Position numbers and translations under genes: made by a program | Notes under the pieces: model-generated | The model's database searches: none | Told to the model about the DNA's origin: nothing | The model's input: only the letters and a program-made list of their open reading frames with translations | From: Chryseosolibacter indicum | Lineage (GTDB): Bacteria; Bacteroidota; Bacteroidia; Cytophagales; Cyclobacteriaceae | Assembly (NCBI RefSeq): GCF_018598585.1 | Contig: NZ_JAHESD010000037.1 | Location: 1-55,128 of the forward strand | Length of the DNA stretch: 55,128 nt | Reading direction: 5' to 3' | Shown: piece by piece, positions 3,082-33,776 of the stretch | How positions within the stretch are numbered: position 1 is the stretch's first letter | Layout of the letters: the number at the start of each line of letters is the position of its first letter

Positions 3082-5811
3082 ATGAAGCATTTTTACAATG
3101 GTTTATGGGCAGCAATTACTTTAGTAATGTTGCTCAATTCCGCGGTTTATGCCCAAACCACTATCTCGGGAAAAGTCGCGGATGCCGCTACTGGAGAGAC
3201 ATTAGCAGGGGTGAATATTGTTGTTAAAGGAAAAGTGATTGGCACCATTACAAATACCAATGGACAATTCTCTCTTGCTGTCAATGATGCTCCTCCTTTT
3301 ACACTTGTCTTTTCTTTTGTTGGTTATCAATCTCAGGAAGTATCTATTAGCGACAACAGTGCTACAGGACTCGATATTAAACTTAGTGAACAAACGGTTC
3401 TGGGTCAGGAGATCGTAGTATCTGCCTCACGTGTTGAAGAGAGCATTATGCGTTCTCCCGTTACTGTTGAAAAGGTTGATTTGCTTGCAATACAGCAGAC
3501 TCCAGCACCTGAATTTTATGAAGCCTTAGCTTCTGTTAAAGGAGTTCAATTCACTTCAAGTAGTTTAAATTTTCCGCAGGTAAACACCAGAGGATTTGCC
3601 ACCATTGCAAATGTTAGATTTGTTCAGCTTGTTGACGGTATAGATACACAAGCCCCCCTATTGAACTTCCCTACAGGTAACATTGTAGGTATCGGTGAAT
3701 TAGATGCAGAAAGCATGGAGCTTGTACCAGGGGCTGCATCAGCGCTTTACGGGCCAAATGCTTTTAATGGTATTCTTATTATGCGCAGTAAAAGTCCTTT
3801 TGAATACCAGGGCTTAAGCGCTCAATTTAAAGGAGGTATCACAACCTCAGATGCGCAAGGCAAAGCTTATCCAATGTATAACTTTGGACTACGTTACGCG
3901 AAGTCATTCAATAACAAGTTCGCCTTCAAAGTAAACTTCTCCATATTGGACGCCGAAGACTGGCATAGCAACGACTACAAGACTGATGTAGTTAATCCGG
4001 AATCAAAAATTGATCTTTCTGGCCAACCTAATTTTAATGGTGTTAATACATATGGCGATGAAGTAGTAATTCCTGTTCCTATTGGAGGAACATTTGGTTC
4101 CCTTGATTTACGAAGAACAGGATGGAAAGAAGAGGACATAATCGATAACTATGACGCAAGAAGTATCAAAGGAGACGCCGCACTTCATTATAGAATAACT
4201 GATAAAGTAGAAGCTTTATATAATTATCGTTTTGGCGGCGGTAGTTCGGTATACCAGGGTTCGCAGAAGTATGCACTCAGAGATTTTACACAACAGTTCC
4301 ATAAAGTTGAGTTAAAGTCAGATAACTTCTTTGTAAGAGGCTATATAACAGCAACTGACGCTGGTGACTCTTACAATATGGCTGCATTAGGCGCGAATCT
4401 GAATGAAAGAATAAGCCCTACAGCAACTGAATGGGCACCTACCTATGCACAAACTTACGTACTTGCCATGCAAGGCTATCTCCCTGGTGTACCTGCCGGA
4501 AACTCTGCTGCAGCGCATCAAGCTGCGCGTACCCGGGCCGATGCAGGACGAAATGCTTTAACGGAACAGGAAAGAAAAGCACTTATTGAAAGTGTAAGAA
4601 ATGACTACTTCCAACGCAATCCTGCAGGTGCAAAGTTTATTGACAACTCTAGGTTGTATCATGGAGAATTCAACTACAACTTTGCTCATCAAATAAAGTT
4701 TGCAGAAATACAGGTAGGTGGTAACGTTCGTCAGTACAGCTTATTCTCTGACGGAACTATCTTTAATGAAGATCCTGATGATGGAACAGATTTCAACAGA
4801 ATAACTATAAACGAATTCGGTGTTTATACCCAGATCTCTAAAACTTTCCTTGAATCGCTTAAGCTGACAGGATCGTTGAGATATGACAAAAATGAAAACT
4901 TTGACGGCCGGGTGACACCAAGGATCTCCGCTGTTTATACTTTCAATCAAAACCATAACATCCGTGCTTCCTTCCAAACAGGATTTAGAAACCCTGATAC
5001 ACAGGCGCAGTTTATCTACTTCCCTGCTGGAACAAACATATTGTTAGGAAGCGCGAAAGCAAATGCTGAACGCTACGGAGTACACAACGGAGGTTCATGG
5101 ACAAGAGCTTCTTATGAAACATTCCGCAGAACTGGGAACACGGCAGATCTTGTTCAGGCGAATATCGCATCTGTACAACCCGAGAAGTTAAGCGCTTTTG
5201 AAGTAGGTTATAAGGGTGTAGTTAATAAGAATTTCCTTTTTGATGTAAACGCATACTACAACAGTTACGAGGACTTTATTGGCTCATTAGATGTTGCAAG
5301 TAAAAATCCTACGACTCATCAGGGTAGAGAAGTTCCTGCGGGAACAATATTCTCTCCTTATGTAAACTCTCCTGCTACTGTGGCCTCTTTTGGTGTAGGT
5401 TTTGGTGTAACATACAATCTTCCGAAAGGGTACCAGTTCAATGCAAACTATAATTATGCAACGCTTGAAGAGGACAAAGATCAGGACCCAAGCTTCCGCT
5501 CGGGCTTCAACACGCCTGAGCACAAATTCAATATTGGTATTGCAAACAGAAAGGTTGTTAAAAATATTGGCTTCAGTGTAAACTACCGTTGGCAGGATGA
5601 ATTCCTTTGGGAATCTGATTTTGGTTCATGGAATGTTCCTTCATTTGGTGTAGTAGATGCTCAGGTAAGCTATCGTGTTCCATCTATAAAAACCATCGTT
5701 AAATTAGGTGGCTCTAACATAGCAGGTGGCGATTATCGCACAAACCTAGGCGGACCATTTGTTGGTCAGCAATATTATATCTCGCTTACATTTGATGAAT
5801 TCTTCCGTTAA
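3082..5811 (+). CDS. TonB-dependent outer-membrane receptor (CarboxypepD_reg-like type)
   Basis: A 909-residue TonB-dependent receptor with a signal peptide (about 1-24), a CarboxypepD_reg-like beta-sandwich (about 26-105, beginning TISGKVADAATGE), a plug region from about 115 (VVSASRVEES, later NTRGFATIANVRFV) and a long barrel ending in aromatic-rich strands (ISLTFDEFFR). Such receptors import bulky ligands across the outer membrane using TonB/ExbBD energy. No SusD-like partner is present. Instead an SGNH-hydrolase lipoprotein begins 18 bases after the stop, so the pair is probably cotranscribed and may act on one ligand, perhaps an ester or lipid. The ligand cannot be read from sequence. 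Confidence 0.9.
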   Translation: MKHFYNGLWAAITLVMLLNSAVYAQTTISGKVADAATGETLAGVNIVVKGKVIGTITNTNGQFSLAVNDAPPFTLVFSFVGYQSQEVSISDNSATGLDIKLSEQTVLGQEIVVSASRVEESIMRSPVTVEKVDLLAIQQTPAPEFYEALASVKGVQFTSSSLNFPQVNTRGFATIANVRFVQLVDGIDTQAPLLNFPTGNIVGIGELDAESMELVPGAASALYGPNAFNGILIMRSKSPFEYQGLSAQFKGGITTSDAQGKAYPMYNFGLRYAKSFNNKFAFKVNFSILDAEDWHSNDYKTDVVNPESKIDLSGQPNFNGVNTYGDEVVIPVPIGGTFGSLDLRRTGWKEEDIIDNYDARSIKGDAALHYRITDKVEALYNYRFGGGSSVYQGSQKYALRDFTQQFHKVELKSDNFFVRGYITATDAGDSYNMAALGANLNERISPTATEWAPTYAQTYVLAMQGYLPGVPAGNSAAAHQAARTRADAGRNALTEQERKALIESVRNDYFQRNPAGAKFIDNSRLYHGEFNYNFAHQIKFAEIQVGGNVRQYSLFSDGTIFNEDPDDGTDFNRITINEFGVYTQISKTFLESLKLTGSLRYDKNENFDGRVTPRISAVYTFNQNHNIRASFQTGFRNPDTQAQFIYFPAGTNILLGSAKANAERYGVHNGGSWTRASYETFRRTGNTADLVQANIASVQPEKLSAFEVGYKGVVNKNFLFDVNAYYNSYEDFIGSLDVASKNPTTHQGREVPAGTIFSPYVNSPATVASFGVGFGVTYNLPKGYQFNANYNYATLEEDKDQDPSFRSGFNTPEHKFNIGIANRKVVKNIGFSVNYRWQDEFLWESDFGSWNVPSFGVVDAQVSYRVPSIKTIVKLGGSNIAGGDYRTNLGGPFVGQQYYISLTFDEFFR

Positions 5812-5829
5812 TCCCCAAAGCATATACTT

Positions 5830-7485
5830 ATGAAAAAGATAAAATATCTTGGATATACATTGGCATTGATACTTGCTCTCAGCGCCTGCGAGCAAGACAC
5901 TATAGATTTACAACAACCAGAGCCAGACTTAACAAACGTAGGAACAGATGCATGCCCCCAAGGTGCATCTAAAGGATCAGCAGATTTTACTAAAGTTGTA
6001 GCCATTGGTAATTCATTGATGGCGGGCTACCAGTCAGGTGCTTTGTTTGACGCAGGTCAGCAGAATTCATTACCGAAAATCCTATCAAAACAATTTGTTT
6101 GCGTCGGCGGAAGCGAAACATTCAACCAACCGGATATCCGCTCAGAATATGGATTCTATACAGGAGGAACGAACCCTGTTGGAAATATCTTTTTAGGGCG
6201 GTTATTTATCTATGGCGCAGCACCTGCACCTTATAAATATCCTAGCCAAGAGGCTGCAGCTTCAAGCATACCAAATCCTCAGGTGAATCCTAATTTTATG
6301 TATGCGGGTTCTCAGGGCGCCGTGCCTACAAAAGACCTGAATAACTTTGGAGTACCAGGGATCGTCCTAGGACAAATTTTTACAACAGCTACAGGTAATT
6401 GGAGTAATCCAAATCCCGCAGCAGGCTTTAATCCTTTTTATGCACGTTTCGCCTCGGATGGAGGTGCAGGTACTAGCACCATTCTTCAGGATGCTACTAC
6501 CTCCCTGGCAAATGGGGGTACGTTTTTTCTTATGGAAATTGGAAATAACGATGTGTTAGGATATGCTATAGGTGGTGCTGCGAGTACCGGTGTTCAAATG
6601 ACATCTACAGCAGATTTTACTATGCAATATCAAGGTGCTCTTCAAACATTACTTTCTGTTCCTAATGTAAAAGGTGCTGTTGCTAACATCCCTGATATTA
6701 CTTCAATTGCCTATTTTAATACAGTAACATGGAATCGGATTGCATTTGATGAAGCAAAACCAACTGACGTTGCTACTGTGGCACAATTAAATGCAGCCTT
6801 TGCTGGATTAAATAGTGCTCTTGATGGTTTATCCGCCAATGGTCTTATTTCTGCAGCAGAGGCTGCAAAAAGAAAAGTTAGTTATCAGCTGGGCAATAAT
6901 CCTATTCTTATCAACGACGAAGACCTGGAAGACTTAGGTCCTAAATTTGACGTCTTACTTTCTGTAAATGCCATTACTCAAGAACAACGTCAAAGACTTG
7001 TGCCTTATGAACAATCGAGACCATTGGTAGCTGGCGAGCTTGTACCTCTTGGGGCCGGAGCTGTGTTAGGTACACTTGCTAATCCGCAAGATCCTACTAC
7101 GGTATGGGGTGTAGCTGTACCATTACCAGATCAGTATGCATTAACAGCAAATGAAATTACTGCAATTCAAACTCGTACGAATGAATTTAACACTATTATA
7201 GCAAATGCTGTAGCACAATTAGGCGGCGACAGGGTAGCGCTAGTTGATGTTAATGGTAAATTTAATCAATTGAAAATGGCAGGTGCTGACGTTGTTAACG
7301 GTGTAACCATTACTCCAACATTAGCGCCTCCTACTGGTGGTTTCTCAGAAGACGGAATCCACCCAAATCAAAGAGGATATGCTTATTTAGCCAACATCTT
7401 CATTGACGCCATCAATACTAAATTTGGTGCTTCTGTTCCTAAAGTAAACATTAGCAAATACAGCGCTAATGGTTTACCTCGGTAA
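5830..7485 (+). CDS. SGNH/GDSL-family hydrolase lipoprotein
   Basis: A 551-residue lipoprotein (lipobox ending LALSAC, Cys20) with a GDSL/SGNH esterase fold. Block I reads IGNSLMAGY, placing the predicted nucleophile at Ser62; the usual Asp before Ser is Asn here. An IGNND motif matches block III. The C-terminal DGIHPNQRG supplies the catalytic Asp (about 508) and His (about 511). The region between holds a long insertion rich in Ala, Asn and Gly, making the protein far larger than simple GDSL esterases. It follows the TonB receptor by 18 bases and is probably surface- or periplasm-anchored, trimming an acylated ligand for that receptor (inference). Confidence 0.82.
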   Translation: MKKIKYLGYTLALILALSACEQDTIDLQQPEPDLTNVGTDACPQGASKGSADFTKVVAIGNSLMAGYQSGALFDAGQQNSLPKILSKQFVCVGGSETFNQPDIRSEYGFYTGGTNPVGNIFLGRLFIYGAAPAPYKYPSQEAAASSIPNPQVNPNFMYAGSQGAVPTKDLNNFGVPGIVLGQIFTTATGNWSNPNPAAGFNPFYARFASDGGAGTSTILQDATTSLANGGTFFLMEIGNNDVLGYAIGGAASTGVQMTSTADFTMQYQGALQTLLSVPNVKGAVANIPDITSIAYFNTVTWNRIAFDEAKPTDVATVAQLNAAFAGLNSALDGLSANGLISAAEAAKRKVSYQLGNNPILINDEDLEDLGPKFDVLLSVNAITQEQRQRLVPYEQSRPLVAGELVPLGAGAVLGTLANPQDPTTVWGVAVPLPDQYALTANEITAIQTRTNEFNTIIANAVAQLGGDRVALVDVNGKFNQLKMAGADVVNGVTITPTLAPPTGGFSEDGIHPNQRGYAYLANIFIDAINTKFGASVPKVNISKYSANGLPR

Positions 7486-7507
7486 TCAAACAGGACTTAG
7501 ATAAAAT

Positions 7508-7545
7508 AAAAGAGACTGCTCTCCATGCAGTCTCTTTTATTTTTG
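7508..7545 (+). terminator. Intrinsic terminator after the receptor/hydrolase pair
   Basis: A perfect 12-bp stem, AAAAGAGACTGC (7508-7519) with GCAGTCTCTTTT (7527-7538), has a 7-base loop and is followed by ATTTTTG. It closes the 3082-7485 unit. The A-rich left side means it could also end minus-strand transcription from 7571. Confidence 0.9.
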
Positions 7546-7570
7546 TCTAGCAGAGAAAAAAAGTATATTA

Positions 7571-7804
7571 CTAATGACCCTTTTTCTTCTGTTGTCCGGG
7601 AGCATGTGGCTTAGCAGACTGATGTCCAGCTGCCTTTTTCTGTTGCCCAGGGGCATGTGATTTGGCTGATTGGTTGCCTGCTACTTTCTTTTCATGTCCA
7701 GGAGGTGTTTTCTTCGGTGTTATCACCACCGTTTTACTGGAACATGAAGCAAGAAAAAGAACTACAACGCAAATCAGGCAAACTCTGAATAATCTTATTT
7801 TCAT
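7571..7804 (-). CDS. Small basic repeat lipoprotein
   Basis: A 77-residue lipoprotein precursor (lipobox LASC, Cys21). The mature part is short, basic and repetitive: two 17-residue units, AGNQSAKSHAPGQQKKA (42-58) and AGHQSAKPHAPGQQKKK (59-75), preceded by a shortened PPGHEKK. I recall similar small Bacteroidota proteins carrying database names such as quinol oxidase subunit 4, but nothing in this sequence supports a role in respiration. The polycationic, histidine-containing tail could bind a polyanion or metal (inference). It lies 14 bases after the stop of the minus-strand barrel gene and is probably cotranscribed with it. Confidence 0.65.
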   Translation of the reverse strand: MKIRLFRVCLICVVVLFLASCSSKTVVITPKKTPPGHEKKVAGNQSAKSHAPGQQKKAAGHQSAKPHAPGQQKKKGH

Positions 7805-7818
7805 TGTTAAAACGGTTA

Positions 7819-8442
7819 CTAGTTAAAATTGTATCTGATACCTATACCTCCCTGGCCAAAGAAGTTGAATGGATCATCCGCCAGTTCCAGAAGTAGATTT
7901 ATATCTGCAAAAGCAGAAAGAGGCGCACCTGGAATGTGATATTCCAAGCCAATAACTCCGTCAACACCAAAGTCTACATCGGTAACCTTTTCTGAAACGT
8001 GTACCCATGTATTTCTTTCGCTGTAACGGTATCTATATGTGAAGGTGTTAAACCTGAGCTGAGGTCCAACACCCCAGTACCACTGAAGTCCTTGAGCATT
8101 GGGGAAGTCTTTTTGAAAAAGTAAATGACCTTGAATGCTTATTGCACTATTTTTTCTATGGCCTAAATAATAGTAATCTCTGAAATCTCGATCGTCATAA
8201 AACCGATCACGGTAATCATATCCCCAATAACTTGATTGTCCGATATTAAACTCAAGTGCCTTCCCATTAGCCAGATATTTCTTAGCAGATACTCCAAGTG
8301 GGTCTCCCAGGCGAATTCCAACACCCCAATTGGTTGGTGTTGAACTTGTTGCTTTGTTTTTTCCTGCGCTTTGTTTCTTTGTCTGTGCTTGTGAAATAGT
8401 AATCGTTAACATCAATACAATAAGAATGTACCTGTACTTCAT
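7819..8442 (-). CDS. Outer-membrane beta-barrel protein
   Basis: A 207-residue protein with a signal peptide (about 1-19, ending ISQAQ) and alternating hydrophobic/aromatic strands typical of a small barrel. It contains GVGIRLGDPLGVSAKKYL near the start, many Tyr/Arg/Asp turns (about 72-95) and a C-terminal GGIGIRYNFN ending in an aromatic-polar strand. It resembles uncharacterised Bacteroidota outer-membrane proteins. It is divergent from the sigma factor gene at 8581, with a 138-base shared upstream region, and precedes the small repeat lipoprotein. The specific function is unknown. Confidence 0.7.
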   Translation of the reverse strand: MKYRYILIVLMLTITISQAQTKKQSAGKNKATSSTPTNWGVGIRLGDPLGVSAKKYLANGKALEFNIGQSSYWGYDYRDRFYDDRDFRDYYYLGHRKNSAISIQGHLLFQKDFPNAQGLQWYWGVGPQLRFNTFTYRYRYSERNTWVHVSEKVTDVDFGVDGVIGLEYHIPGAPLSAFADINLLLELADDPFNFFGQGGIGIRYNFN

Positions 8443-8580
8443 TTTAATAATTTTGGTTTATCTACACCTTTAGTATTTAAACCGGCCCTTACCCTGTAGT
8501 GCATTGAAAAAATTTTAACAATAATTTTAAATTCTATTTTTAGCCTTTAAACGCTACTTTTAAGTACTTTTTACGGATTC

Positions 8581-9144
8581 ATGGGCGAACTGGCACAACA
8601 AGACTTCGACACACTTTTTCTAAAATACCACCGTGAGCTATTGAACCTTGCCTATAATATTGTTAGAGATAGAGATATTGCTAAAGATGTTGTACAGGAG
8701 GTATTTACTAGTCTTTGGAAGAACAGACACTCAATTCAGTTCGGCGAACAGATAAAAAATTATCTCTTCAAAGCCACCTCTCATACCTCGCTCAATGCTT
8801 TGAGAAAGCTGAAGACATCCTATAAACTGGATGATTACCAGGAAATTTCAATGCTAATAGCACCCTCAGGCCCCGAATCTCCTGCTTATGGTGAGCTTGA
8901 ATTACGCGTCAGGCAAGCGATCGACCGCCTCCCCCCGCAATGCAAAACAATTTTTCTTCTGAGCCGGCACGAGGGACTAAAATACCAGGAAATAGCAGAA
9001 ACCCTTGGATTATCAGTAAAAACAGTTGAAAGCCAGATGGGAATAGCCCTTGAAAAACTGCGCCAGGACCTTAAACCCTTCTTAACACTCGAATTTCTGG
9101 CAATCCTGCTCGCAGCAAGCCTCTTATTTTATATTCTCTTTTAA
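8581..9144 (+). CDS. ECF RNA polymerase sigma factor with C-terminal membrane tail
   Basis: A 187-residue FecI-like sigma-70 factor. Region 2 spans about 9-75 (LFLKYHRELLNLAYNIV, DIAKDVVQEVF). Region 4 spans about 110-160 (LPPQCKTIFLLSRHEGLKYQEIA, then a helix-turn-helix ending VKTVESQM). After region 4 the last 20 or so residues form a hydrophobic helix (about 167-187, FLAILLAASLLFYILF), an addition to a normally soluble protein. It heads a unit with a small lipoprotein and a FecR-like anti-sigma, so the pair probably controls an envelope response. No SusC-like receptor is adjacent. The target genes are unknown. Confidence 0.88.
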   Translation: MGELAQQDFDTLFLKYHRELLNLAYNIVRDRDIAKDVVQEVFTSLWKNRHSIQFGEQIKNYLFKATSHTSLNALRKLKTSYKLDDYQEISMLIAPSGPESPAYGELELRVRQAIDRLPPQCKTIFLLSRHEGLKYQEIAETLGLSVKTVESQMGIALEKLRQDLKPFLTLEFLAILLAASLLFYILF

Positions 9145-9224
9145 TTTTTTTTCATACTGGTTAGGGGTATAGGCGGTGTTGTGTGCTATAGAAATATAGA
9201 TACAAGAAATAAACCCCATTTTCA

Positions 9225-9347
9225 ATGAAAAAGATGATTCTTCTAACCATTTTAACGGTGACAATACTAAGTTCCTGTTCTTCTCATGTATGTCCTACTT
9301 ATGCAAAATTTAGCCCTCATAAGAAGACAAAGGTGAGATACAGGTAG
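9225..9347 (+). CDS. 40-residue lipoprotein between sigma and anti-sigma genes
   Basis: A short frame starting with ATG at 9225 and ending with TAG at 9347. The 40-residue product begins MKKMILLTILTVTILSSC, a clean signal peptide and lipobox with Cys18, followed by only about 22 residues (SSHVCPTYAKF, then a basic tail). Codon use and the signal peptide look real. It lies 80 bases after the sigma gene and 13 bases before the FecR gene. Similar tiny CPTYAKF-type proteins seem to occur in other Bacteroidota, but I know no function. It could be a periplasmic signal or cofactor of the anti-sigma protein (inference). Confidence 0.6.
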   Translation: MKKMILLTILTVTILSSCSSHVCPTYAKFSPHKKTKVRYR

Positions 9348-9360
9348 TACTTTTAATTTT

Positions 9361-10443
9361 ATGGAGATTGATAAAGAACAATTAAGCAAGTTTGTTTCGT
9401 ATTTTAATGGTGAACTAACAGATGCAGAAAAGGCTGAAATAGAACAGTGGATTACAGCATCAGAAGAAAACAGAGTCACCTTTTCAGAAGCAAAGAAGAT
9501 CTGGGATAGTGCAACAGTACGCCTGCAATATCCTTATATAGATTCTTCTAAGTTTCTTATTGAAACAAAAAGCAGGATTAACAACACGCAATCTGGTAAT
9601 AAAGTTATCTCCTTTATTAGCACGCATGCGCTTAAAATTGCAGCAAGTGTCACCATCATTTTCATCATCTCCTACTTCACATTTAAATCTTCGATTAAGG
9701 ACGAAATAATGTTTGCTAGTGGTGACAAAGTGGCCACGCTATACCTTCCTGATAGCAGTAAAGTCTGGCTTAACGTTAATAGTAAGCTTACCTATTCAAA
9801 AGATTTTAAAAAACGCCATGTTGAGCTTTCAGGGGAGGCATTTTTATCTGTTAGAAAGGATACAACTGCTTTTACAGTTACTACCAAAAATACCATAACG
9901 CAGGTATTAGGTACCTCCTTCAATCTAAAAGAACAAGGTGATACTGCAGTAACACTTACGGTAGCAGAGGGTGTTGTTAAGTTTTCCGATCGCAATGTTT
10001 CTGAAAATGAGCGGGCAGTTGTTAATGCACATGAGAAAGCGGTAGAAAGTACAAAGTCCGGTTTGCATAAAACGAAAAACGATGATCCCACTTTTGCCAA
10101 ATGGAGAGAGCTTAACAACCCTGCTTTCGAGGATGAAAAGAATAACCCGCAAAAGTTTCTCTCTAATACTTATTCATGGAAAAAGAATCAAATTAATCAG
10201 TCAGTGATTGAGGGGACATTGACTAATCACGGTAACCTTGCTGCTTATACGAAAATTGTTCTCAACGTCTCCTACACAAAGCCAGGTGGTACTGCTGTAA
10301 ACTCAAATATTGTAATTTATGACGCAGTATACCCTGGGAAAAAACTACATTATAAAAAACGACTTTTAGATGTTTTTACAGATACCAAAGCTGTAAATAT
10401 TACCATTAAATCTGCTAAAGCAACAGCCAATAACTCATTCTAA
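9361..10443 (+). CDS. FecR-like anti-sigma factor with atypical C-terminal domain
   Basis: A 360-residue single-pass protein. Residues 1-60 form the cytoplasmic helical anti-sigma region (FVSYFNGELTDAEKAEIEQW). A transmembrane helix spans about 89-108. The FecR beta domain spans about 118-212 (LPDSSKVWLNVNSKLTY, HVELSGEAFLSV, VLGTSFNL). In place of the usual C-terminal STN/DUF4974-type secretin-like domain, residues about 265-355 resemble an FxLYD-like beta-sandwich (VIEGTLTNHGNLAAYTKIVLNV). It should hold the sigma factor encoded at 8581 at the membrane. The replaced C-terminus and the lack of a receptor partner suggest a signal other than a TonB receptor (inference). Confidence 0.82.
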   Translation: MEIDKEQLSKFVSYFNGELTDAEKAEIEQWITASEENRVTFSEAKKIWDSATVRLQYPYIDSSKFLIETKSRINNTQSGNKVISFISTHALKIAASVTIIFIISYFTFKSSIKDEIMFASGDKVATLYLPDSSKVWLNVNSKLTYSKDFKKRHVELSGEAFLSVRKDTTAFTVTTKNTITQVLGTSFNLKEQGDTAVTLTVAEGVVKFSDRNVSENERAVVNAHEKAVESTKSGLHKTKNDDPTFAKWRELNNPAFEDEKNNPQKFLSNTYSWKKNQINQSVIEGTLTNHGNLAAYTKIVLNVSYTKPGGTAVNSNIVIYDAVYPGKKLHYKKRLLDVFTDTKAVNITIKSAKATANNSF

Positions 10444-10453
10444 TCTCTACATT

Positions 10454-10768
10454 ATGAACGATACAGTAGTAATTGAAGCCGAAGCAAAAACAATTATTTG
10501 TATTGGTGAAAAAATTATCAACCTTCACACAAACCTGGGTCCCAAAAGTCCTATCAATAATGTGATGATAGCGGACCTCAATTCTAAAATTTCAATTGCA
10601 AGACAAAAGCATGAAGAAGGAGAGAAATATAAGAAGTTAATGGAAGATGCCTGGCGTGAAAGAGACCTATGCCTTAAGAAGAAAGAGAAGGGTGTTATAG
10701 AAATGTTGAGGTCGATAAAGAATATGCTTCTCGGAGAAAACAGAAGCATTAGTGACTGGGGATTTTAA
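10454..10768 (+). CDS. Small coiled-coil hypothetical protein
   Basis: The 104-residue product is not recognised. It has no signal peptide or membrane segment. The middle (about 38-90) is highly charged and likely helical (ISIARQKHEEGEKYKKLMEDAWRERD), with coiled-coil character. It starts 10 bases after the FecR-like gene and so probably belongs to the sigma/anti-sigma transcript. It ends 42 bases before a convergent gene. It may be a cytoplasmic partner of the sigma circuit, but only its position suggests this. Confidence 0.6.
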   Translation: MNDTVVIEAEAKTIICIGEKIINLHTNLGPKSPINNVMIADLNSKISIARQKHEEGEKYKKLMEDAWRERDLCLKKKEKGVIEMLRSIKNMLLGENRSISDWGF

Positions 10769-10810
10769 CAAATGGTGATGCTGTAAGCGCCTACCGCAAC
10801 AATAGTTCGC

Positions 10811-11647
10811 TTAGGCCTCTTGAATAAACTCAAGTATTAGCTTATTCACCTTCTCCGTCTTCTCGTGATGAAGCCAATGTGTGGCATCTTGTAACATCAC
10901 AAGTTTGCCATTAGCACAATGGTCCTTACTTTTTTCTGCCATCTCCGCTGATAGAAACTGATCCTTCTTACCCCAGATGATTAAGGTCGGGACATTGACA
11001 GTAACGTCGTTAGTCGATTTGTAGTACTTAAACGCTCTATACCAATGAAGCATTGATGTTAACGCATTCGGCTGTTGCCATGCGTGTTTATATCTGGTAA
11101 GATCTTCACTATCAAAAGTACCTTTAATCGAAGTATTTAGCAGAGACCTCTCTAAAAACTTAAAGTTAAACACCTTCAGCAAAAGCTCGGGCAATACAGG
11201 CAATTGAAACAAAGCCTGGTACCAACTCTTAATCATTTGTTTGGGATTAGTCTTTACCTCATGCAACATTACCGCAGGATGAGGCATGTTCAATATTACA
11301 AGCTTCTTTAATAACGAGGGATGCCGAATCGCTACTTCCCAGGCAACGCAACCTCCCCAATCATGGCCAACCAGAAAAACTTTTCTAGTACCAATTAATG
11401 CGACAATGTCTGCTACAAGGTTATCAATAATATAAGCTTTTACTCCTTCAGGTTTGCTACTCATGTTATAGCCTCGCTGGTCAGGTGCTATAGCATGATA
11501 ACCCACACTGGCCATAAAATCCAATTGCTTCTTCCATGCGCCACCATATTCAGGAAAACCATGCAGAAATATAATTGCTTCTTTATTCCCCTCGCCCTCC
11601 TCCGAGCAGTGTAAGGTAATGCCGTTTGCATGGTTGAAAGTTTCCAT
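10811..11647 (-). CDS. Alpha/beta hydrolase, epoxide hydrolase-like
   Basis: A 278-residue cytosolic alpha/beta hydrolase. The oxyanion motif HGFPE is at 29-33. The nucleophile elbow GHDWGG is at 94-99, with Asp96 as nucleophile, which is the arrangement of epoxide hydrolases and haloalkane dehalogenases rather than serine esterases. The acid is probably Asp229 (WGKKDQF) and the catalytic histidine His257 (DATHWLHHE). The DQRGYNMS motif also fits epoxide hydrolases. The substrate is unknown. The gene converges on the sigma-circuit transcript and is followed on its 5' side by a 366-base stretch that holds only a possible gene remnant. Confidence 0.82.
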   Translation of the reverse strand: METFNHANGITLHCSEEGEGNKEAIIFLHGFPEYGGAWKKQLDFMASVGYHAIAPDQRGYNMSSKPEGVKAYIIDNLVADIVALIGTRKVFLVGHDWGGCVAWEVAIRHPSLLKKLVILNMPHPAVMLHEVKTNPKQMIKSWYQALFQLPVLPELLLKVFNFKFLERSLLNTSIKGTFDSEDLTRYKHAWQQPNALTSMLHWYRAFKYYKSTNDVTVNVPTLIIWGKKDQFLSAEMAEKSKDHCANGKLVMLQDATHWLHHEKTEKVNKLILEFIQEA

Positions 11648-11760
11648 TTGCTTATTAGAAATTTCGCCAACACCGAATAATACAATGCCAGCTAAGCATG
11701 CGGCTAAACTAAAATAGAATTAGATAATTAGATGAATATTAGGAAGTAAGCAAGGTTTTC

Positions 11761-11919
11761 TTACTCTATATCCAGATTGTATTTATAAAGAAGGCCCGTA
11801 AGATTAAGTGCTGAAAACCTGGTCTTCTTCATCTTATTACTATCAGGGTCAATAGCAAAATTCTGCGCCGTTCTGCGGTCCGTTTTTTCCAGGTTTGTAT
11901 TTGAAAACCTGGCTCCTGC
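11761..11919 (-). pseudogene. Possible gene remnant (start-less 52-codon frame)
   Basis: In the 366 bases between 11647 and 12014 the minus strand holds a stop-to-stop frame encoding a protein-like 52 residues, with segments RRTAQNFAIDPDSNK, KKTRFSALNLTGLLYKYNLD and a terminal IE. There is no start codon at the left end, only an internal ATG before KKTRF. It reads like the C-terminus of a regulator-type protein, but I cannot name a family. The region also holds a CCAGGTTT/AAACCTGG inverted repeat (11889-11912), and AAAACCTGG recurs at 11814 and 11904. It may be a decayed gene end or just chance. Confidence 0.3.
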
Positions 11920-12013
11920 TTAACTCACTGTTTTTAAAAGGGCTTCAAATTAAATCTAAATCAGCTAAACCTAGCTTCTTTTAAAGAACAACTGGTGTAT
12001 ACGTTTTCCTAAG

Positions 12014-12403
12014 CTACTCCTGGATAGGCATCTTCTTTTTCTTCCATCCATCAAAACCTTCAGGAAGATTATATACTTCCTTAAATCCTTCTTTTGCCAT
12101 CAACTCTTTTGTTTCGCCACTTCTGCCTCCACCTGCGCAATAAATGAAATACACCTTATTCTTGTCCAACGCTCTTATCTGGTCTTCGAAATTCTTATTG
12201 AAATAGTCTATCTGCACCGCGTGCGGAAGCATGCCTTTCTTTAATTCATCCGGTGTTCTCAAATCAAGCAACACAGCTCCTGGCTTCGACTCGAGCTTCG
12301 TTTTGAACTGTTCAGCTGTAAGGTCTTCTGATATAACATTACCTTGTGAAAAAGCCGTAACAGAAGCGGCAACTAATATTGAAATGAATACAAATGTTTT
12401 CAT
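12014..12403 (-). CDS. Periplasmic rhodanese-like domain protein
   Basis: A 129-residue protein with a signal peptide (KTFVFISILVAASVTAFSQ) and one rhodanese domain (ISEDLTAEQFKTKL, VLLDLRTPDEL, IDYFN). The catalytic cysteine is present in the loop CAGGGRSGE, so it may be active as a persulfide or thiosulfate sulfurtransferase in the periplasm; the in vivo acceptor is unknown. The ATG at 12403 was chosen over an in-frame TTG six bases upstream because it lies two bases after the TGA of the upstream YdcF-like gene (TGA-GT-ATG), an arrangement typical of translational coupling. Confidence 0.85.
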   Translation of the reverse strand: MKTFVFISILVAASVTAFSQGNVISEDLTAEQFKTKLESKPGAVLLDLRTPDELKKGMLPHAVQIDYFNKNFEDQIRALDKNKVYFIYCAGGGRSGETKELMAKEGFKEVYNLPEGFDGWKKKKMPIQE

Positions 12404-12405
12404 AC

Positions 12406-13173
12406 TCAAATATAACCTGCAAATTTATAGGCTACTATACCAACCCACTCTTTTATCAGCCTCTGCCAAAGTGAAAACGCCTCCAGCTTGGGAATAAAAA
12501 GAGTATCAGGATAAAAATTGCGCTGATGCGTGTAAAAATCAGTGCTAAAAGTTTCAATGTTTAGCCCCACCTTTCTGTAGCAGGCAATGGAGCGCCTCAT
12601 ATGAAATGCTGAAGTTACCAGCAGACAATCTTCAGACTTATAGTTCATCTGCTTCAGCAGCTTTTGAACTTCAATTGCTGATTCTGCCGTATTGCGTGTC
12701 TCATTTTCAATTAAAATTACCTCTTCAGGCACCCCCATCAATATCATTGCACTTCTGAATTTATTAGCTTCTGGCTCGTCTTCTGTAACCAACCGCCCTG
12801 AACCTCCGCTAATCAATATCTTCTCTACAAGACCAAGCTTGTATAATTGCACTGTATGTACTACCCTATCGGCACCCTTGCTAAAATAAACTCGATCACT
12901 AGGATAGAGATCTCCCTGGGTTGAACCAGTGAGCACAATGGCCAGCTTGTACTTGCGCATCTCTTTAAAAGGTTTTGCCTTAACTTCCCACGCACGCATT
13001 GCTTCGTTCGCAATAAAGTCATTAGAGAAGAAGAGAAGCATCACAAATGCAGTCCAAAAAGTACGTTTGCGCCACTTTGTATTTTTAATCAAAACACTTA
13101 CAATGAACAGAACACATACAATTGTAAAAGGTTGAATGAGATAACCTAATACTTTAGAAAGAACAAAAAACAT
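12406..13173 (-). CDS. YdcF/SanA-like (DUF218) membrane protein
   Basis: A 255-residue membrane protein with two N-terminal transmembrane helices (MFFVLSKVLGYLIQ onward) and a DUF218 domain: AIVLTGSTQGD, SDRVYFSKGADRVV, KILISGGSG, EANKFRSAMILMGV, ENETRNTAES and LLVTSAFHMRRSI. The family includes ElyC, SanA and YdcF, tied to envelope polysaccharide or peptidoglycan metabolism in enterobacteria; biochemistry is mostly unknown. The ATG at 13173 gives the usual family N-terminus; a GTG at 13212 in the same frame would add 13 residues. It is coupled to the rhodanese gene downstream and lies close after the large ABC transporter gene. Confidence 0.8.
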   Translation of the reverse strand: MFFVLSKVLGYLIQPFTIVCVLFIVSVLIKNTKWRKRTFWTAFVMLLFFSNDFIANEAMRAWEVKAKPFKEMRKYKLAIVLTGSTQGDLYPSDRVYFSKGADRVVHTVQLYKLGLVEKILISGGSGRLVTEDEPEANKFRSAMILMGVPEEVILIENETRNTAESAIEVQKLLKQMNYKSEDCLLVTSAFHMRRSIACYRKVGLNIETFSTDFYTHQRNFYPDTLFIPKLEAFSLWQRLIKEWVGIVAYKFAGYI

Positions 13174-29675: not shown

Positions 29676-30989
29676 ATGTCTATAATCATTGTTTCCTTTT
29701 GCATCATCGTGCTCATCCTTCTGATAACGCAATTTAAGGTCAATGCATTTCTGGCTTTTCTTCTAATTTGTATTCTTGCCGGGTTTCTACTGGGTATTGA
29801 TAGTACAAAGATTGTTGGTTCTATACAGAAGGGCATCGGTGACATGCTTGGCTCTCTTGTAATAGTAATTGTAAGCGGTGCCATGCTCGGAAAACTAGTT
29901 GCAGAAAGCGGAGCTGCCGAACGAATAGCTTCAGGCATGATGAGGTTGTTTGGAGAGCGGTATATTCAATGGGCATTGGTAGTTACAGGATTTGTTATAG
30001 GCATTCCGTTGTTTTATAACGTAGGTTTTGTTCTTGTAATGCCTCTGGTTTTTTCGGTGGTTTACCGATACAAGTTACCTTCCATTTATGTGGGATTGCC
30101 AATTCTTACAGCCCTATCAGTAACGCATGGCTTTCTTCCTCCCCATCCGTCACCTGCAGGATTAGTTAGTCAGTTTGACGCGGACATGGGAAAAACATTG
30201 CTGTATGGGATCCTAATTGCCATTCCTACAGTAATAATTGCCGGCCCGATCTTTTCAAAAACCCTGAGAAGAATCAATGCGCCCATGTTAAAAACATTTA
30301 AACCCAGTGATACACCAGAAGATCAATTACCAGGGTTGACAAATAGTCTTATCTCGGCACTGCTTCCTGTTATCCTGCTTACAATTACTACCGTACTTAC
30401 TTACATCATACCACCATACAGCCCATTAAGCAAAACAATTCTTTTCTTAAGCGATCCTGCATTGGTACTATTACTTTCTTTGTTCATCGTAACCTTTACA
30501 CTGGGTATTAACATGAAAATGAGTATGAAGAAAATCATGGATATCTATAGCGATTCGGTAAAAGATATCGCTATGCTTCTACTTATCATGAGCGGTGCAG
30601 GTGCATTAAAAGAGATTTTGATTGTTAGCGGTGTAAGCATGGAGATAGCAGGGCTACTGAATGGCCTTAATGTTCATTTACTTGTGTTAGGTTGGCTGCT
30701 CGCTTCCGTTATCAGAGTATGTCTTGGTTCAGCAACAGTAGCTGGTCTTACTGCTGCTGGCATCGTTGCTCCGCTTTTGAATGGCTCAGGAGTTGATCCC
30801 AACCTTATGGTACTATCTATTGGAGCAGGAAGTCTCATGTTTTCACATATTAATGATGCAGGCTTCTGGTTGTTTAAAGAATATTTTAATACAAGCATTC
30901 GTGATACAATCAAATCGTGGTCAATGATGGAATCTATTGTTGCAGTTAGTGGTTTGGTGGGTGTTTTGATTTTGAATTACATTATATAA
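29676..30989 (+). CDS. GntP-family permease (gluconate/D-serine transporter type)
   Basis: A 437-residue inner-membrane transporter of the gluconate:H+ symporter family, with about 12 hydrophobic helices, GFLPPHPSPAGL (a family signature, about 152-163), GVSMEIAGLLNGL and GAGSLMFSHINDAGFWLFKEYF near the C-terminus. GntP members carry gluconate or other sugar acids; DsdX of E. coli is a D-serine permease in the same family. Here the gene begins a same-strand series with RidA, a PLP enzyme and a dipeptidase, favouring an amino-acid substrate (inference). RidA starts 140 bases later, so an internal promoter is possible. Confidence 0.9.
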   Translation: MSIIIVSFCIIVLILLITQFKVNAFLAFLLICILAGFLLGIDSTKIVGSIQKGIGDMLGSLVIVIVSGAMLGKLVAESGAAERIASGMMRLFGERYIQWALVVTGFVIGIPLFYNVGFVLVMPLVFSVVYRYKLPSIYVGLPILTALSVTHGFLPPHPSPAGLVSQFDADMGKTLLYGILIAIPTVIIAGPIFSKTLRRINAPMLKTFKPSDTPEDQLPGLTNSLISALLPVILLTITTVLTYIIPPYSPLSKTILFLSDPALVLLLSLFIVTFTLGINMKMSMKKIMDIYSDSVKDIAMLLLIMSGAGALKEILIVSGVSMEIAGLLNGLNVHLLVLGWLLASVIRVCLGSATVAGLTAAGIVAPLLNGSGVDPNLMVLSIGAGSLMFSHINDAGFWLFKEYFNTSIRDTIKSWSMMESIVAVSGLVGVLILNYII

Positions 30990-31061
30990 GCAGAATTCTT
31001 AACTCCTTATTCTGAGCTCTCCTACCAATGCGTGGCACACACATTCTTCATTATTACTCAA

Positions 31062-31126
31062 AATGTTAAATTTTGTAACATTATCTCAATGATAATTCTC
31101 AAATTGGATGCTCAATTAACATGTTA
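31062..31126 (+). promoter_or_regulatory. Palindromic TGTTA/TAACA operator candidates before ridA
   Basis: Two palindromes with the same half-site occur upstream of ridA. AATGTTA and TAACATT (31062-31068, 31076-31082) are separated by 7 bases, and TAACATGTTA (31117-31126) is a perfect 10-bp palindrome. The second one covers the first in-frame ATG at 31121, which supports translation from the ATG at 31130. The pattern looks like an operator pair for a dimeric regulator. Confidence 0.5.
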
Positions 31127-31129
31127 CAA

Positions 31130-31597
31130 ATGAGTACTTCACCTGATCAAAGATTTGCAGACTTAAAGCTTACCCTTCCTCCTGCTCCTAAACCACTTGG
31201 CGTATACAAACCTTTTCTTATAGTTGATAAGTTCGTTTATGTTTCAGGACATGGAACAGTAAAAGAAGATGGAACACTCATTATCGGACGCATAGGAAAA
31301 GATATGAGTATGGAAGAAGGAAAAGCTGCAGCACAACAAGTAGGTCTCGCCATACTTGCAACACTAAAACAGAATCTCGGAAGCCTCAACAAGATTAAAC
31401 GTGTAGTTAAAGTCCTTGGTATGGTAAATTGTGTTCCGGAGTTCGAAAGACATCCTTTTGTTATCAACGGATGCAGTGAATTGTTTGCAAAAGTATGGGG
31501 TGAAGAGAATGGAATAGGTGTGCGTAGTGCAGTAGGCATGGGTTCACTTCCAGATAATATTCCGGTTGAAATTGAAGCAATGTTTGAATTACAATGA
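31130..31597 (+). CDS. RidA-family (YjgF/YER057c/UK114) protein
   Basis: A 155-residue RidA-like protein, longer than the typical 130 residues but with the family layout (FVYVSGHGTVKEDGTL, AAQQVGLAILATLKQNLGSLNKIKRVVKVLGMVNC, FVINGCSELFAKVWGEENGIGVRSAVGMGSLP, VEIEAMFEL). The arginine in GVRSAVG fits the imine-binding arginine of active members. RidA removes reactive 2-aminoacrylate released by PLP-dependent dehydratases. It overlaps the start of the PLP enzyme gene by 4 bases (ATGA), tying its role to that enzyme. The ATG at 31121 is an alternative start. Confidence 0.87.
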   Translation: MSTSPDQRFADLKLTLPPAPKPLGVYKPFLIVDKFVYVSGHGTVKEDGTLIIGRIGKDMSMEEGKAAAQQVGLAILATLKQNLGSLNKIKRVVKVLGMVNCVPEFERHPFVINGCSELFAKVWGEENGIGVRSAVGMGSLPDNIPVEIEAMFELQ

Positions 31598-32700
31598 GCA
31601 ACGCTTGGTATACTTTTAATAACGTGGACGAGATTGATTCACCTGCCCTCCTGATATATAAGGAGCATGTGAAGGACAATATTGAGACACTAATAAATTC
31701 CATCGATTCTAAGGAACGTCTTCGCCCTCATATAAAAACACATAAATCTCCTGAAGTGTCAAGCTTGATGCTTAAGGCTGGCATCACAAAATTTAAGTGT
31801 GCTACAATTGCTGAAGCAGAAATGCTTGCCAATGCAGGAGCACAAGACGTCTTACTTGCTTACCAACCCGTAGGACCTAAAGCAAAACGCCTGGCTGAAT
31901 TAGTAGAAGAATTTCCAGGCACTACATTTTCCTGTCTGATAGATAATTACAATACAGCGTCAGCACTATCCAGTGTCTTTACATTAAACAATTTAAGTAT
32001 CAATGTATATATTGATGTAAATGTAGGAATGAACAGAACTGGAATATCTACTGAAGGAGTGACTGAACTGTTTCGAATCTGTGAGAATTTAAAAGGAATA
32101 TCCATAGTAGGCTTACATGCCTATGATGGACATATTCGTGATACTGATTTCGAGGCAAGGAAAAAGAAGTGTGATGAGGGCTTTAATAGTATCCAAACAA
32201 TAGCAGAGCAAATAGAACAATCATCCGGAAAGAAACTTATAATAGTTGCAGGCGGAACGCCAACATACTCTGTTCACTCCCGAAGAAAAGAAATTGAATG
32301 TAGCCCTGGCACATTCATTTATTGGGACAAAGGATATGAGCAGATACTTCCTGAACAGCATTACAAATTTGCAGCACTTGTTTTAACTCGGGTTATTTCC
32401 AAACCAGCAAGCAATCTCATTTGTATTGATCTTGGGCACAAAGCAATTGCCTCTGAGAATCCTCTTAATAATCGAGTATACTTTCTTAATGCACCTGAAC
32501 TGTTTCCTGTTGGCCATAGTGAAGAACACATGGTACTACAAACTACGGATAAACAGTATGAGGTTGGTGATGCACTTTATGGTGTTCCCCATCATGTATG
32601 CCCTACTGTTGCACTTCATGACCAGGCTCATGTTGTTGAAAAACATATGGCTGTTGATGTCTGGTACAATATCTCAAGGAATAGAAAAATAACAATCTAG
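31594..32700 (+). CDS. Fold-type III PLP enzyme: D-serine dehydratase / D-threonine aldolase family
   Basis: A 368-residue alanine racemase-fold PLP enzyme. The PLP lysine is probably Lys48 in RPHIKTHK (44-51). The C-terminal metal site is His334-x-Cys336 (PHHVCPTVAL). From memory, D-threonine aldolase binds its metal with His and Asp at this site, whereas eukaryotic-type D-serine dehydratase uses His and Cys, so the Cys points toward the dehydratase. Coupling to RidA also fits a reaction making 2-aminoacrylate. A database name of D-TA family enzyme is still the safe call. It follows ridA with a 4-base overlap and precedes the dipeptidase by 5 bases. Confidence 0.82.
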   Translation: MSNAWYTFNNVDEIDSPALLIYKEHVKDNIETLINSIDSKERLRPHIKTHKSPEVSSLMLKAGITKFKCATIAEAEMLANAGAQDVLLAYQPVGPKAKRLAELVEEFPGTTFSCLIDNYNTASALSSVFTLNNLSINVYIDVNVGMNRTGISTEGVTELFRICENLKGISIVGLHAYDGHIRDTDFEARKKKCDEGFNSIQTIAEQIEQSSGKKLIIVAGGTPTYSVHSRRKEIECSPGTFIYWDKGYEQILPEQHYKFAALVLTRVISKPASNLICIDLGHKAIASENPLNNRVYFLNAPELFPVGHSEEHMVLQTTDKQYEVGDALYGVPHHVCPTVALHDQAHVVEKHMAVDVWYNISRNRKITI

Positions 32701-32705
32701 GATAC

Positions 32706-33776
32706 ATGTTTATTATTGATGCGCACCTCGACCTCGCCATGAATGCAATGGAATGGAACAGGGATCTAAGAAAACCCATAGAAGAGATAAGGAACCGTGA
32801 GGAACATCTTAAAGATAAACCAGACAGAGGAAAAGGCGTTGTAAGCTTCCCTGAGTTAAGAAAGGGAAACATTGGACTGGTAGTGGCGACACAAATAGCC
32901 CGATACGTAGCTCCTGATAATTCATTGCCGGGTTGGAATTCTCCTGAACAAGCATGGGCACAGACTCAAGGGCAACTGGCATGGTATAAAGCCATGGAAG
33001 ATGCAGGAGAACTAGTACAAATAAAAGATCTTCCATCGCTCGAAAAACATTTACAGCTTTGGAATGACGGTAACTCAAACACCAATAAACCTATTGGCTA
33101 TATCCTTAGCCTTGAAGGTGCTGATTCTATTGTTACAGTAAAACATCTTGAACGTGCTTATGCTTACGGTTTACGTGCTGTAGGGCCAGGACATTATGGA
33201 CCTGGAAGGTATGCACAGGGCACGAATGCAACAGGCGGAATTGGCCAGACCGGGCGTGAGCTTCTTAAAGAAATGGAGCGCCTGAATATTATTCTCGACG
33301 CGACGCATTTGTGTGATGACAGTTTCTGGGAGGCTATGGATCACTTCCATGGCAATGTTTGGGCGAGTCATAATAATTGTCGTTCGATTGTAGACCATAA
33401 CAGGCAATTCAGTGATGAGCAGATCAAAGAACTTGTTAGTCGTGGTGCCGTAATTGGCAGCGTGCTGGATACTTGGATGATGGTCCCTAACTGGATCAGG
33501 GGAGAATCTACTCCTGAGAACACTAATTGCAACCTGGAGGTTATCATCAACCATATGGATCACATTTGTCAGCTTGCCGGCAATGCTTTACATGTTGCCA
33601 TCGGATCTGATCTTGATGGAGCATTTGGCAAAGAGCAATCACCTTATGATCTTGAGACCATTGCAGACTTGCAAAAAATATCTAACCTTTTACAAAAGCG
33701 TGGTTACGCAAACGCTGATATAGAAAACATTATGCACGGGAACTGGCTTCGTTTTTTAAGAAGAGCCTGGAAATAA
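32706..33776 (+). CDS. Membrane dipeptidase-type (M19) peptidase
   Basis: A 356-residue M19 zinc peptidase without a signal peptide, so probably cytoplasmic. The binuclear metal ligands are evident: His7 and Asp9 (DAHLDL), a glutamate in LSLEGAD, a histidine in DATHLCDD and another in ASHNNCR, and aspartates in IGSDLDGAFG. The family cleaves dipeptides, including ones with a C-terminal D-residue. In this operon it could release D-amino acids from peptidoglycan-derived or foreign dipeptides for the PLP enzyme (inference). Confidence 0.9.
   Translation: MFIIDAHLDLAMNAMEWNRDLRKPIEEIRNREEHLKDKPDRGKGVVSFPELRKGNIGLVVATQIARYVAPDNSLPGWNSPEQAWAQTQGQLAWYKAMEDAGELVQIKDLPSLEKHLQLWNDGNSNTNKPIGYILSLEGADSIVTVKHLERAYAYGLRAVGPGHYGPGRYAQGTNATGGIGQTGRELLKEMERLNIILDATHLCDDSFWEAMDHFHGNVWASHNNCRSIVDHNRQFSDEQIKELVSRGAVIGSVLDTWMMVPNWIRGESTPENTNCNLEVIINHMDHICQLAGNALHVAIGSDLDGAFGKEQSPYDLETIADLQKISNLLQKRGYANADIENIMHGNWLRFLRRAWK

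Follow-up and report, generated by a model that had tools for sequence, protein, structure and literature searches.

The stretch of DNA that we analysed, hereafter the window, comprises positions 1-55,128 of contig NZ_JAHESD010000037.1 of Chryseosolibacter indicum (assembly GCF_018598585.1), and between its positions 29,676 and 33,776 lie four genes for a GntP-family permease, a Rid protein, a fold-type III pyridoxal 5'-phosphate (PLP) enzyme and an M19 metallohydrolase. Which compound does this group of genes serve to degrade? A first-pass annotation had read them as an operon for the utilization of D-serine or a related D-amino acid. We found that the operon is real and conserved, and the sequence of the PLP enzyme supports well the dehydration that this annotation had proposed, but D-serine as the substrate was not supported, given the clade of the enzyme, its sequence and fold matches, and the type of the permease. 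Tentatively, and with a probability of roughly 0.45, we read the locus as an operon by which Bacteroidota break down a beta-hydroxy-D-alpha-amino compound, of which D-glucosaminate (2-amino-2-deoxy-D-gluconate) is the likeliest, with the M19 protein acting as an N-deacylase. The features that enter this argument are the following.

29676-30989, + strand: GntP permease, 437 amino acids, GntT/IdnT-like (gluconate type); Pfam GntP_permease 2e-143
31121-31597, + strand: Rid1-type imine/enamine deaminase, 158 amino acids; Pfam YjgF_endoribonc 2e-14 and Ribonuc_L-PSP 3e-7
31523-31525, + strand: Arg135 codon of the Rid protein, the equivalent of the arginine needed for imine hydrolysis
31594-32700, + strand: fold-type III PLP enzyme, 368 amino acids, predicted dehydratase/deaminase of a beta-hydroxy-D-amino compound; Pfam Ala_racemase_N 6e-22 and D-ser_dehydrat 5e-19
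31735-31737, + strand: Lys48 codon of the PLP enzyme, the PLP Schiff-base lysine
32140-32142, + strand: Asp183 codon of the PLP enzyme, at the place of the catalytic base His193 of the D-threonine aldolase AxDTA
32593-32601, + strand: His334-Val335-Cys336 codons of the PLP enzyme, the metal site
32706-33776, + strand: M19 metallohydrolase (membrane-dipeptidase family), 356 amino acids, putative enzyme for release of the D-amino compound from its N-acyl or aminoacyl form; Pfam Peptidase_M19 5e-48

The reading frames and their Pfam families agreed with the four-gene unit as it had first been described, in which the Rid stop and the PLP start overlap by four bases (31594-31597) and five bases (32701-32705) separate the PLP and M19 genes; the gap between the GntP and Rid genes is 131 bases, and a second ATG at 31130 is a possible alternative start for Rid. 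We counted gene orders around members of the PLP clade in two samples. The unselected sample comprised 39 loci, of which 29 came, besides the window, from an even phylum draw (55 genomes matched; 25 with distant homologues, 25-32% identical, were dropped, and the window and 29 others were kept) and 10 were new loci from a class draw. The selected sample comprised the best 80 of 583 confirmed named relatives, which lean towards close kin; the counts cover the 61 of these that extend for 4.5 kb or more to either side, after 19 with a shorter flank had been dropped. The sets of named and unnamed loci overlap at least once, as L034 and L120 are the same sequence.

The four-gene order GntP-Rid-PLP-M19, for which a search in other genomes had been proposed, was found in 15 of the 39 unselected loci, followed by Rid-PLP-M19 (6), Rid-PLP (2), PLP-M19 (2), M19 before PLP (2) and the PLP gene alone (12). 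Rid thus stood upstream of the PLP gene in 23 of the 39, a pairing of a fold-III PLP enzyme with a Rid protein that occurs also in the ong cluster compared below. In the 61 counted loci of the selected sample, Rid-PLP-M19 was present in 43, 20 of them with GntP and 23 without it, and the remainder were PLP alone (7), GntP-PLP (4), Rid-PLP (4), GntP-Rid-PLP (2) and PLP-M19 (1). This recurrence of the gene order in many genera agrees with a single operon and, with the invariant residues of the PLP enzyme given below, goes beyond chance. In the selected set, the Rid and M19 proteins were usually closer to those of the window than was the PLP enzyme encoded beside them (in L064, for example, identities of 84% and 74% for Rid and M19, as against 55% for the PLP enzyme). 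Locus L174 has 0.9 kb after its PLP gene, too short to show an M19 gene. Three genomes from the family to which the window's organism belongs have GntP-Rid (L149-L151) and M19 (L132-L134) in separate places and gave no match to the PLP enzyme; a gene of 768-797 amino acids precedes GntP in L149-L151, and in L150 it gave a weak secretion-tail match below the cut-off.

The chemistry of the operon depends on the PLP enzyme, to which the first-pass annotation had ascribed a dehydratase-type metal site at His334-x-Cys336. In the alignment, Lys48 fell on the PLP lysine in all seven solved relatives aligned, and His334 and Cys336 fell on the metal pair, which is His347 and Asp349 in AxDTA and His and Cys in 3anu, 3wqc and 3llx. 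Cys336 therefore lies inside the metal site, and the ascription stood. Published work describes His347 and Asp349 as the metal pair of AxDTA and His and Cys as that of chicken D-serine dehydratase and 3llx, and reports that the base His193 of AxDTA is missing in the latter two (PMC4401734). In our joint alignment, all four solved aldolases had Asp as the metal ligand and His where the base lies, and all three solved His-x-Cys enzymes had Cys as the ligand and a residue other than His at the base position. The window enzyme carries Cys at the metal and Asp183 at the base position, and therefore has neither the His-x-Asp ligands nor the base of an aldolase. Across 118 aligned clade members, window included (L165 and L174, of 120, were dropped because of a stop in the matched frame), Lys48, His334 and Cys336 were invariant and His occurred at position 183 in four.

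The enzyme thus has the His-x-Cys ligands and PLP lysine of eukaryotic-type D-serine dehydratases, yet it does not group with them. A tree (FastTree, midpoint rooted) resolved three groups, namely D-serine dehydratase, D-threo-3-hydroxyaspartate dehydratase and 3llx (support 0.998), D-threonine aldolase and BhcC (0.992), and the window clade, which lies outside the clade of 3anu, 3wqc and 3llx. Residues 175-180 and 309-312 are conserved within the window clade and differ from those of the seven solved relatives aligned. Matches to solved proteins were led by aldolases (4v15, E 1e-29; 6qkb, E 2e-27; 3anu, 2e-20), and the enzyme passed no NCBIfam cut-off, its best model being BhcC at 133 bits against a required 690. 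An AF2 model of the enzyme (pLDDT 93.2, pTM 0.91) retrieved 4v15 first in Foldseek (TM 0.89), then 3anu (0.86) and 6qkb (0.85). Taken as a whole, sequence and fold are therefore a little closer to D-threonine aldolase than to D-serine dehydratase, but TM values this close mean that the overall fold does not choose between the two. As the metal Cys and the missing aldolase base give good support to dehydration, we judge dehydration followed by Rid-assisted deamination to be the probable chemistry of the operon.

The Rid protein had been called RidA. Its place in the Rid family was confirmed, while the label of RidA itself was not: its closest solved relatives were, in order, 3d01, PA0814 (9bk9), 2otm and ACIAD3089 (9bkb), which bring it nearer to Rid1-type proteins, and PA0814 and ACIAD3089 are classed as Rid1 in Table 3 of PMC5619798. 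The arginine needed for imine hydrolysis by Rid proteins (PMC4433059) corresponds to Arg135, which was kept in all 89 aligned Rid proteins, window included. We accordingly place the protein in Rid1 on this essential arginine and on its nearest characterised relatives, that is, by similarity. Proteins of Rid1-3 were active in vitro as deaminases of 2-aminoacrylate, and those of Rid1 could rescue a ridA mutant (PMC5619798). The in vivo substrates of Rid1 proteins were stated in 2015 to be unknown (PMC4433059).

The M19 protein qualifies as a metallohydrolase of this family on its metal and catalytic residues, which we take, from renal dipeptidase, to have these roles. Residues H7, D9, E137, H163, H201, H222, R233 and D302 were kept in 88-91 of the 91 aligned proteins (two weak matches were left out), and the deviations were gaps apart from one H163W. 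The proposal that this protein supplies the D-amino compound to the rest of the pathway appears reasonable to us.

The permease did not turn out to be of the DsdX kind, as had been supposed from its family. It passed the cut-off of the TIGR00791 gluconate:H+ symporter model (491 against 293 bits) and fell far below that of the DsdX model (245 against 618 bits), and also below the cut-off of the gluconate transporter equivalog model, with 489 bits. Its identity is 47.1% to E. coli GntT, 44.6% to IdnT and 32.6% to DsdX, and in a tree (for which branch supports were not printed) the permeases of these operons fall together with GntT and IdnT, not with DsdX. By family, then, it is probably a gluconate/idonate-type carrier; a search by sequence found no solved GntP-family relative.

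The clues that bear most directly on the substrate came from genes beside the PLP gene in relatives of the window. In one genus, four of the seven loci in which GntP, Rid, PLP and M19 genes stand in this order (L047, L141, L143 and L145) read GntP-Rid-kinase-KDPG aldolase-PLP-M19, where KDPG is 2-keto-3-deoxy-6-phosphogluconate; SusD lies upstream in all four, SusC was read in L047, and the operon is bordered by genes for GH20 and DeoR in each of the seven. In L072 an aldolase gene immediately precedes the PLP gene, accompanied by a kinase gene truncated where the contig ends, L057 has a kinase and an aldolase just downstream of M19 in convergent orientation, with a permease that is sister to that of the window in the tree, and L070 has a kinase of the 2-keto-3-deoxygluconate (KDG) type, with no aldolase, between PLP and M19. 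The best models for the kinases scanned (L141, L070, L057) were KDG-kinase or an aldolase-kinase fusion, all below cut-off; the aldolases of L072 and L057 passed one KDPG aldolase model each, and that of L141 passed none, yet it passed Pfam. Glycosidases occur as well. Locus L117 of Arcicella aurantiaca has the order DeoR, SusC, SusD, alpha-L-fucosidase (GH29), Rid, PLP, M19, GH20 (SusD and GH20 assigned by similarity), and L131 has a GH20-domain gene upstream. A GH63-like gene lies downstream of M19 in 15 of the best 80 of 583 relatives, all Mucilaginibacter, with a gap of at most 30 bases in six (Pfam was checked on L101 and L129, and the L032 gene gives the same Pfam matches). The match of L118 to the GH20 query proved to be an upstream glucose/sorbosone dehydrogenase with carbohydrate-binding modules as accessory domains, and was rejected as GH20; GH20-like matches in L068 and L091 were left out of the count, being on the opposite strand. 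That some relatives have a KDG-type kinase, KDPG aldolase or glycosidases next to the PLP gene points to a sugar acid as the product.

Under the reading that we prefer, the substrate would enter in an N-acyl form, for example as N-acetyl-D-glucosaminate derived from oxidised chitin or from some other glycan with hexosamines. The gluconate-type GntP permease would import this sugar acid, and the M19 protein, whose catalytic residues are present, would remove the acyl group from the nitrogen. The PLP enzyme, with the site described above, would then eliminate the beta-hydroxyl as water to give an enamine/imine, which the Rid1-type protein, through Arg135, would hydrolyse to a 2-keto acid and ammonia. 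D-glucosaminate would in this way become 2-keto-3-deoxygluconate, which the kinase and aldolase present in some relatives could phosphorylate and cleave. That the Bacteroidota have in this operon their own route for N-acetyl-D-glucosaminate of C1-oxidised chitin or other hexosamine glycans, separate from the ong pathway of the Gammaproteobacteria and with GntP, M19 as the deacetylase, a dehydratase of a third PLP clade and a dedicated Rid1 protein, is a narrower proposal that we regard as possible but doubtful; it would include the window organism as a scavenger with several chitinases and with neither AA10 nor KDPG aldolase found.

A number of observations weigh against D-glucosaminate as the substrate. 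The own genome, a draft that is 99.4% complete, gave no match to the KDPG aldolase family PF01081, a single DHDPS-family match, no HpcH/HpaI match above cut-off and no match to the AA10 lytic polysaccharide monooxygenases, and its KDG-kinase match covers 147 amino acids of the N-terminal part (C100, L158:7757-8200, - strand). With no KDPG aldolase and a kinase fragment, KDG would have no known exit in the own organism, and the last step of the scheme is unexplained there; a KDG kinase and KDPG aldolase are available in some relatives. The linkage to KDG genes was seen in about four lineages only. The four cases in the 39 unselected loci come from one genus and so represent one lineage, for which the probability by chance is about 0.12, and an aldolase occurred in 2 of the best 80 of 583 where 0.27 would be expected (P about 0.03); the two estimates are rough and assume 1.5 copies per 5.3 Mb. 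The PLP and GntP proteins of the genus of L047 stand on long branches, the convergent arrangement in L057 may be coincidence, and the 12 unselected loci with the PLP gene alone have none of its three partners in range. We know of no M19 enzyme shown to deacetylate N-acetylglucosaminate, and the cluster of the window lacks the D-aminoacylase-type deacetylase and SSS transporter of the ong type. Finally, neighbours of the 3HCDH, SDR, fatty-acid hydroxylase, Aminotran_3, ceramidase-like and PAP2 kinds in some relatives are unexplained, and specificity may vary within the clade.

Among the alternatives, the use of D-serine or D-threonine carries the most weight and is still in contention, although we consider it rather unlikely. 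In this scheme, M19 would cleave dipeptides or N-acyl forms to release the amino acid, which the PLP enzyme would then dehydrate, and Rid1 would hydrolyse 2-aminoacrylate to pyruvate (or, from D-threonine, 2-aminocrotonate to 2-ketobutyrate). M19 enzymes have a specificity for C-terminal D-residues that suits this scheme, as do the Rid partner and a His-x-Cys site like that of chicken D-serine dehydratase, D-threo-3-hydroxyaspartate dehydratase and 3llx. It needs no KDPG aldolase, and since a D-serine-like substrate would give pyruvate, the exit problem of the own genome does not arise. The activity of Rid1 proteins on 2-aminoacrylate and their rescue of a ridA mutant (PMC5619798) fit it as well, and because OngC, the PLP enzyme of the ong cluster, accepts D-serine and D-threonine (PMC9537276), an activity of the window enzyme on D-serine is conceivable. 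However, the PLP enzyme falls outside the D-serine dehydratase clade, the permease is nearer to GntT/IdnT than to DsdX, and the KDG-type kinase, KDPG aldolase and glycosidases of some relatives would have no evident role.

The same dehydration and deamination might instead act on another amino sugar acid such as galactosaminate, or M19 might be a lactonase, which we hold to be unlikely. An M19 paralogue in L137 lies with a 2-keto-3-deoxygalactonate kinase and a KDPG-type aldolase, GFO/IDH/MocA or SDR dehydrogenases adjoin M19 in L127 and L135, and the GH29 and GH20 genes of L117 suit fucosylated glycans rather than chitin; the PLP clade, however, shows no direct evidence of a galacto-substrate, and the M19 catalytic residues, with the roles that we presume for them, are of the amide-hydrolase type. 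It is still more improbable that the PLP enzyme is an aldolase of the D-threonine or D-3-hydroxyaspartate type, giving glycine and an aldehyde, with Rid in another role. The best sequence and fold matches and the best NCBIfam model do lie on this side, the latter far under its cut-off, but we put this reading low after the test at two residues, as the metal ligand is Cys and not Asp, the base His193 is replaced by Asp183, and all four solved aldolases have both that Asp and that His; the conserved Rid partner, moreover, fits an enamine product.

Several further observations concern the neighbours in relatives. In L137 (G249), a sugar-acid cluster without the PLP gene at 4350-12999 contains the M19 paralogue, 2-keto-3-deoxygalactonate kinase and KDPG-type aldolase together with 3HCDH, a sugar-type MFS carrier, FecR and a TonB receptor; this M19 paralogue counts in favour of the preferred reading as well. 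A larger cluster is conserved in loci of a Mucilaginibacter type. These loci (L074, L077, L085, L090, L098, L100, L101, L106, L114, L116, L125, L128, L130 and others) carry genes of 183 and 312 amino acids, a PAP2-domain gene, a DoxX-like gene and a gene of 368 amino acids upstream of Rid. This last gene occurs upstream of Rid in 15 of the best 80 of 583 relatives, 14 of them Mucilaginibacter; it gave no NCBIfam match in L077, its L032 relative gave no Pfam match, and by profile comparison it is not GH20-like. An SDR gene and a 3HCDH-like gene accompany the PLP gene in L053, L064 and L165, and in L053 and L064 they lie between PLP and M19 with one further gene (a fatty-acid hydroxylase by Pfam in L064). 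L040 and L041, with M19 before PLP, have two 3HCDH-type dehydrogenases, a class III aminotransferase (Aminotran_3) and a ceramidase-like gene, for which Pfam was run on L041. Across genomes, KDPG aldolase was counted in 28 of the 30 that carry the PLP clade and in 122 of the remaining 266; 26 of these 150 have no match over the family cut-off. This co-occurrence was set aside, as kinship and genome size confound it.

In the own genome, an altronate/galactarate dehydratase gene of full length (L158:8441-10087, + strand) adjoins the kinase fragment; as no match to a KDPG aldolase was obtained, the pair resembles a hexuronate route in decay. The genome also has four GH18 and four GH20 matches, which speak for the amino-sugar reading. 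GH18 genes lie at C95:77994-84920 and 121019-121972, three of them close together in long frames (1154, 751 and 928 amino acids), a grouping that suggests a chitin utilization locus; inspection of the frames around the GH20 gene nearest to the operon-linked ones found no neighbours of the kind that those linked genes have. By inspection, the operon is flanked upstream by leucyl-tRNA synthetase and a ketoacyl-ACP-synthase-III-like gene, which clusters with genes of eight named loci (the L052 copy scores ACP_syn_III), and downstream by a convergent M16-like peptidase. Sigma-70-like promoters (17, against 12.3 +/- 2.8 in shuffles) and terminators (2, against 3.3) around the operon showed no telling excess, and a Bacteroidota promoter pattern had no match in the operon. 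A phage or viral origin was set aside, as a single protein query, which detects close relatives only, found no relative in viral contigs.

These results give a testable substrate to an uncharacterised operon present in many Bacteroidota, to a PLP clade whose window member passes no NCBIfam cut-off, and to Rid1 proteins. If the substrate is indeed an amino sugar acid, a second phylum would consume oxidised amino sugars with different enzymes, and an M19 enzyme would gain a new role.

We found no description of the four-gene operon or of a Bacteroidota glucosaminate route in the open PMC literature, as judged from titles and the beginnings of abstracts. Among known systems, dsdXA of E. coli likewise places a GntP-family permease beside a PLP enzyme, but the window permease is 33% identical to DsdX and 47% to GntT, and DsdA belongs to another PLP fold type. 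D-threonine aldolase and BhcC share the fold and have the highest overall similarity among solved proteins, whereas the window enzyme is without their metal-ligand Asp and base His193. The D-serine dehydratase 3anu and the D-threo-3-hydroxyaspartate dehydratase 3wqc share the fold, the PLP lysine, the His-x-Cys motif and the absence of the base His, but form a separate clade with identities of about 24% and 22%, respectively, in structural alignment.

The closest parallel in gene content is the ong cluster of Pseudoalteromonas prydzensis, which serves an oxidative chitin pathway with the parts OngA-OngB-OngC-OngD-KdgK and in which OngB deacetylates N-acetyl-D-glucosaminate, OngC deaminates the product to KDG and KdgK phosphorylates it; OngC is described as a fold-III PLP enzyme that acts on glucosaminate, D-serine and D-threonine, OngD as an essential RidA-family protein whose role is unexplained, and OngA as a GH20 enzyme, and the pathway is reported to be complete only among Gammaproteobacteria and in a single Betaproteobacterium (PMC9537276). 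The window cluster resembles it in having a fold-III PLP deaminase (compared with OngC by description), a Rid-family protein, a putative N-deacylase and a permease, and some relatives add a KDG-type kinase, KDPG aldolase, GH20, TonB-dependent uptake and a regulator, so that the parts beside some Bacteroidota operons match much of the ong parts list. The two differ in that ong has the D-aminoacylase-type OngB and the SSS transporter OngIT, where the window has M19 and GntP, and in that the window has a Rid1-type protein and no kinase or aldolase, with SusC/D and DeoR in relatives. Were the reaction an elimination that sets an enamine free, OngD and the Rid protein of the window would have the same task.

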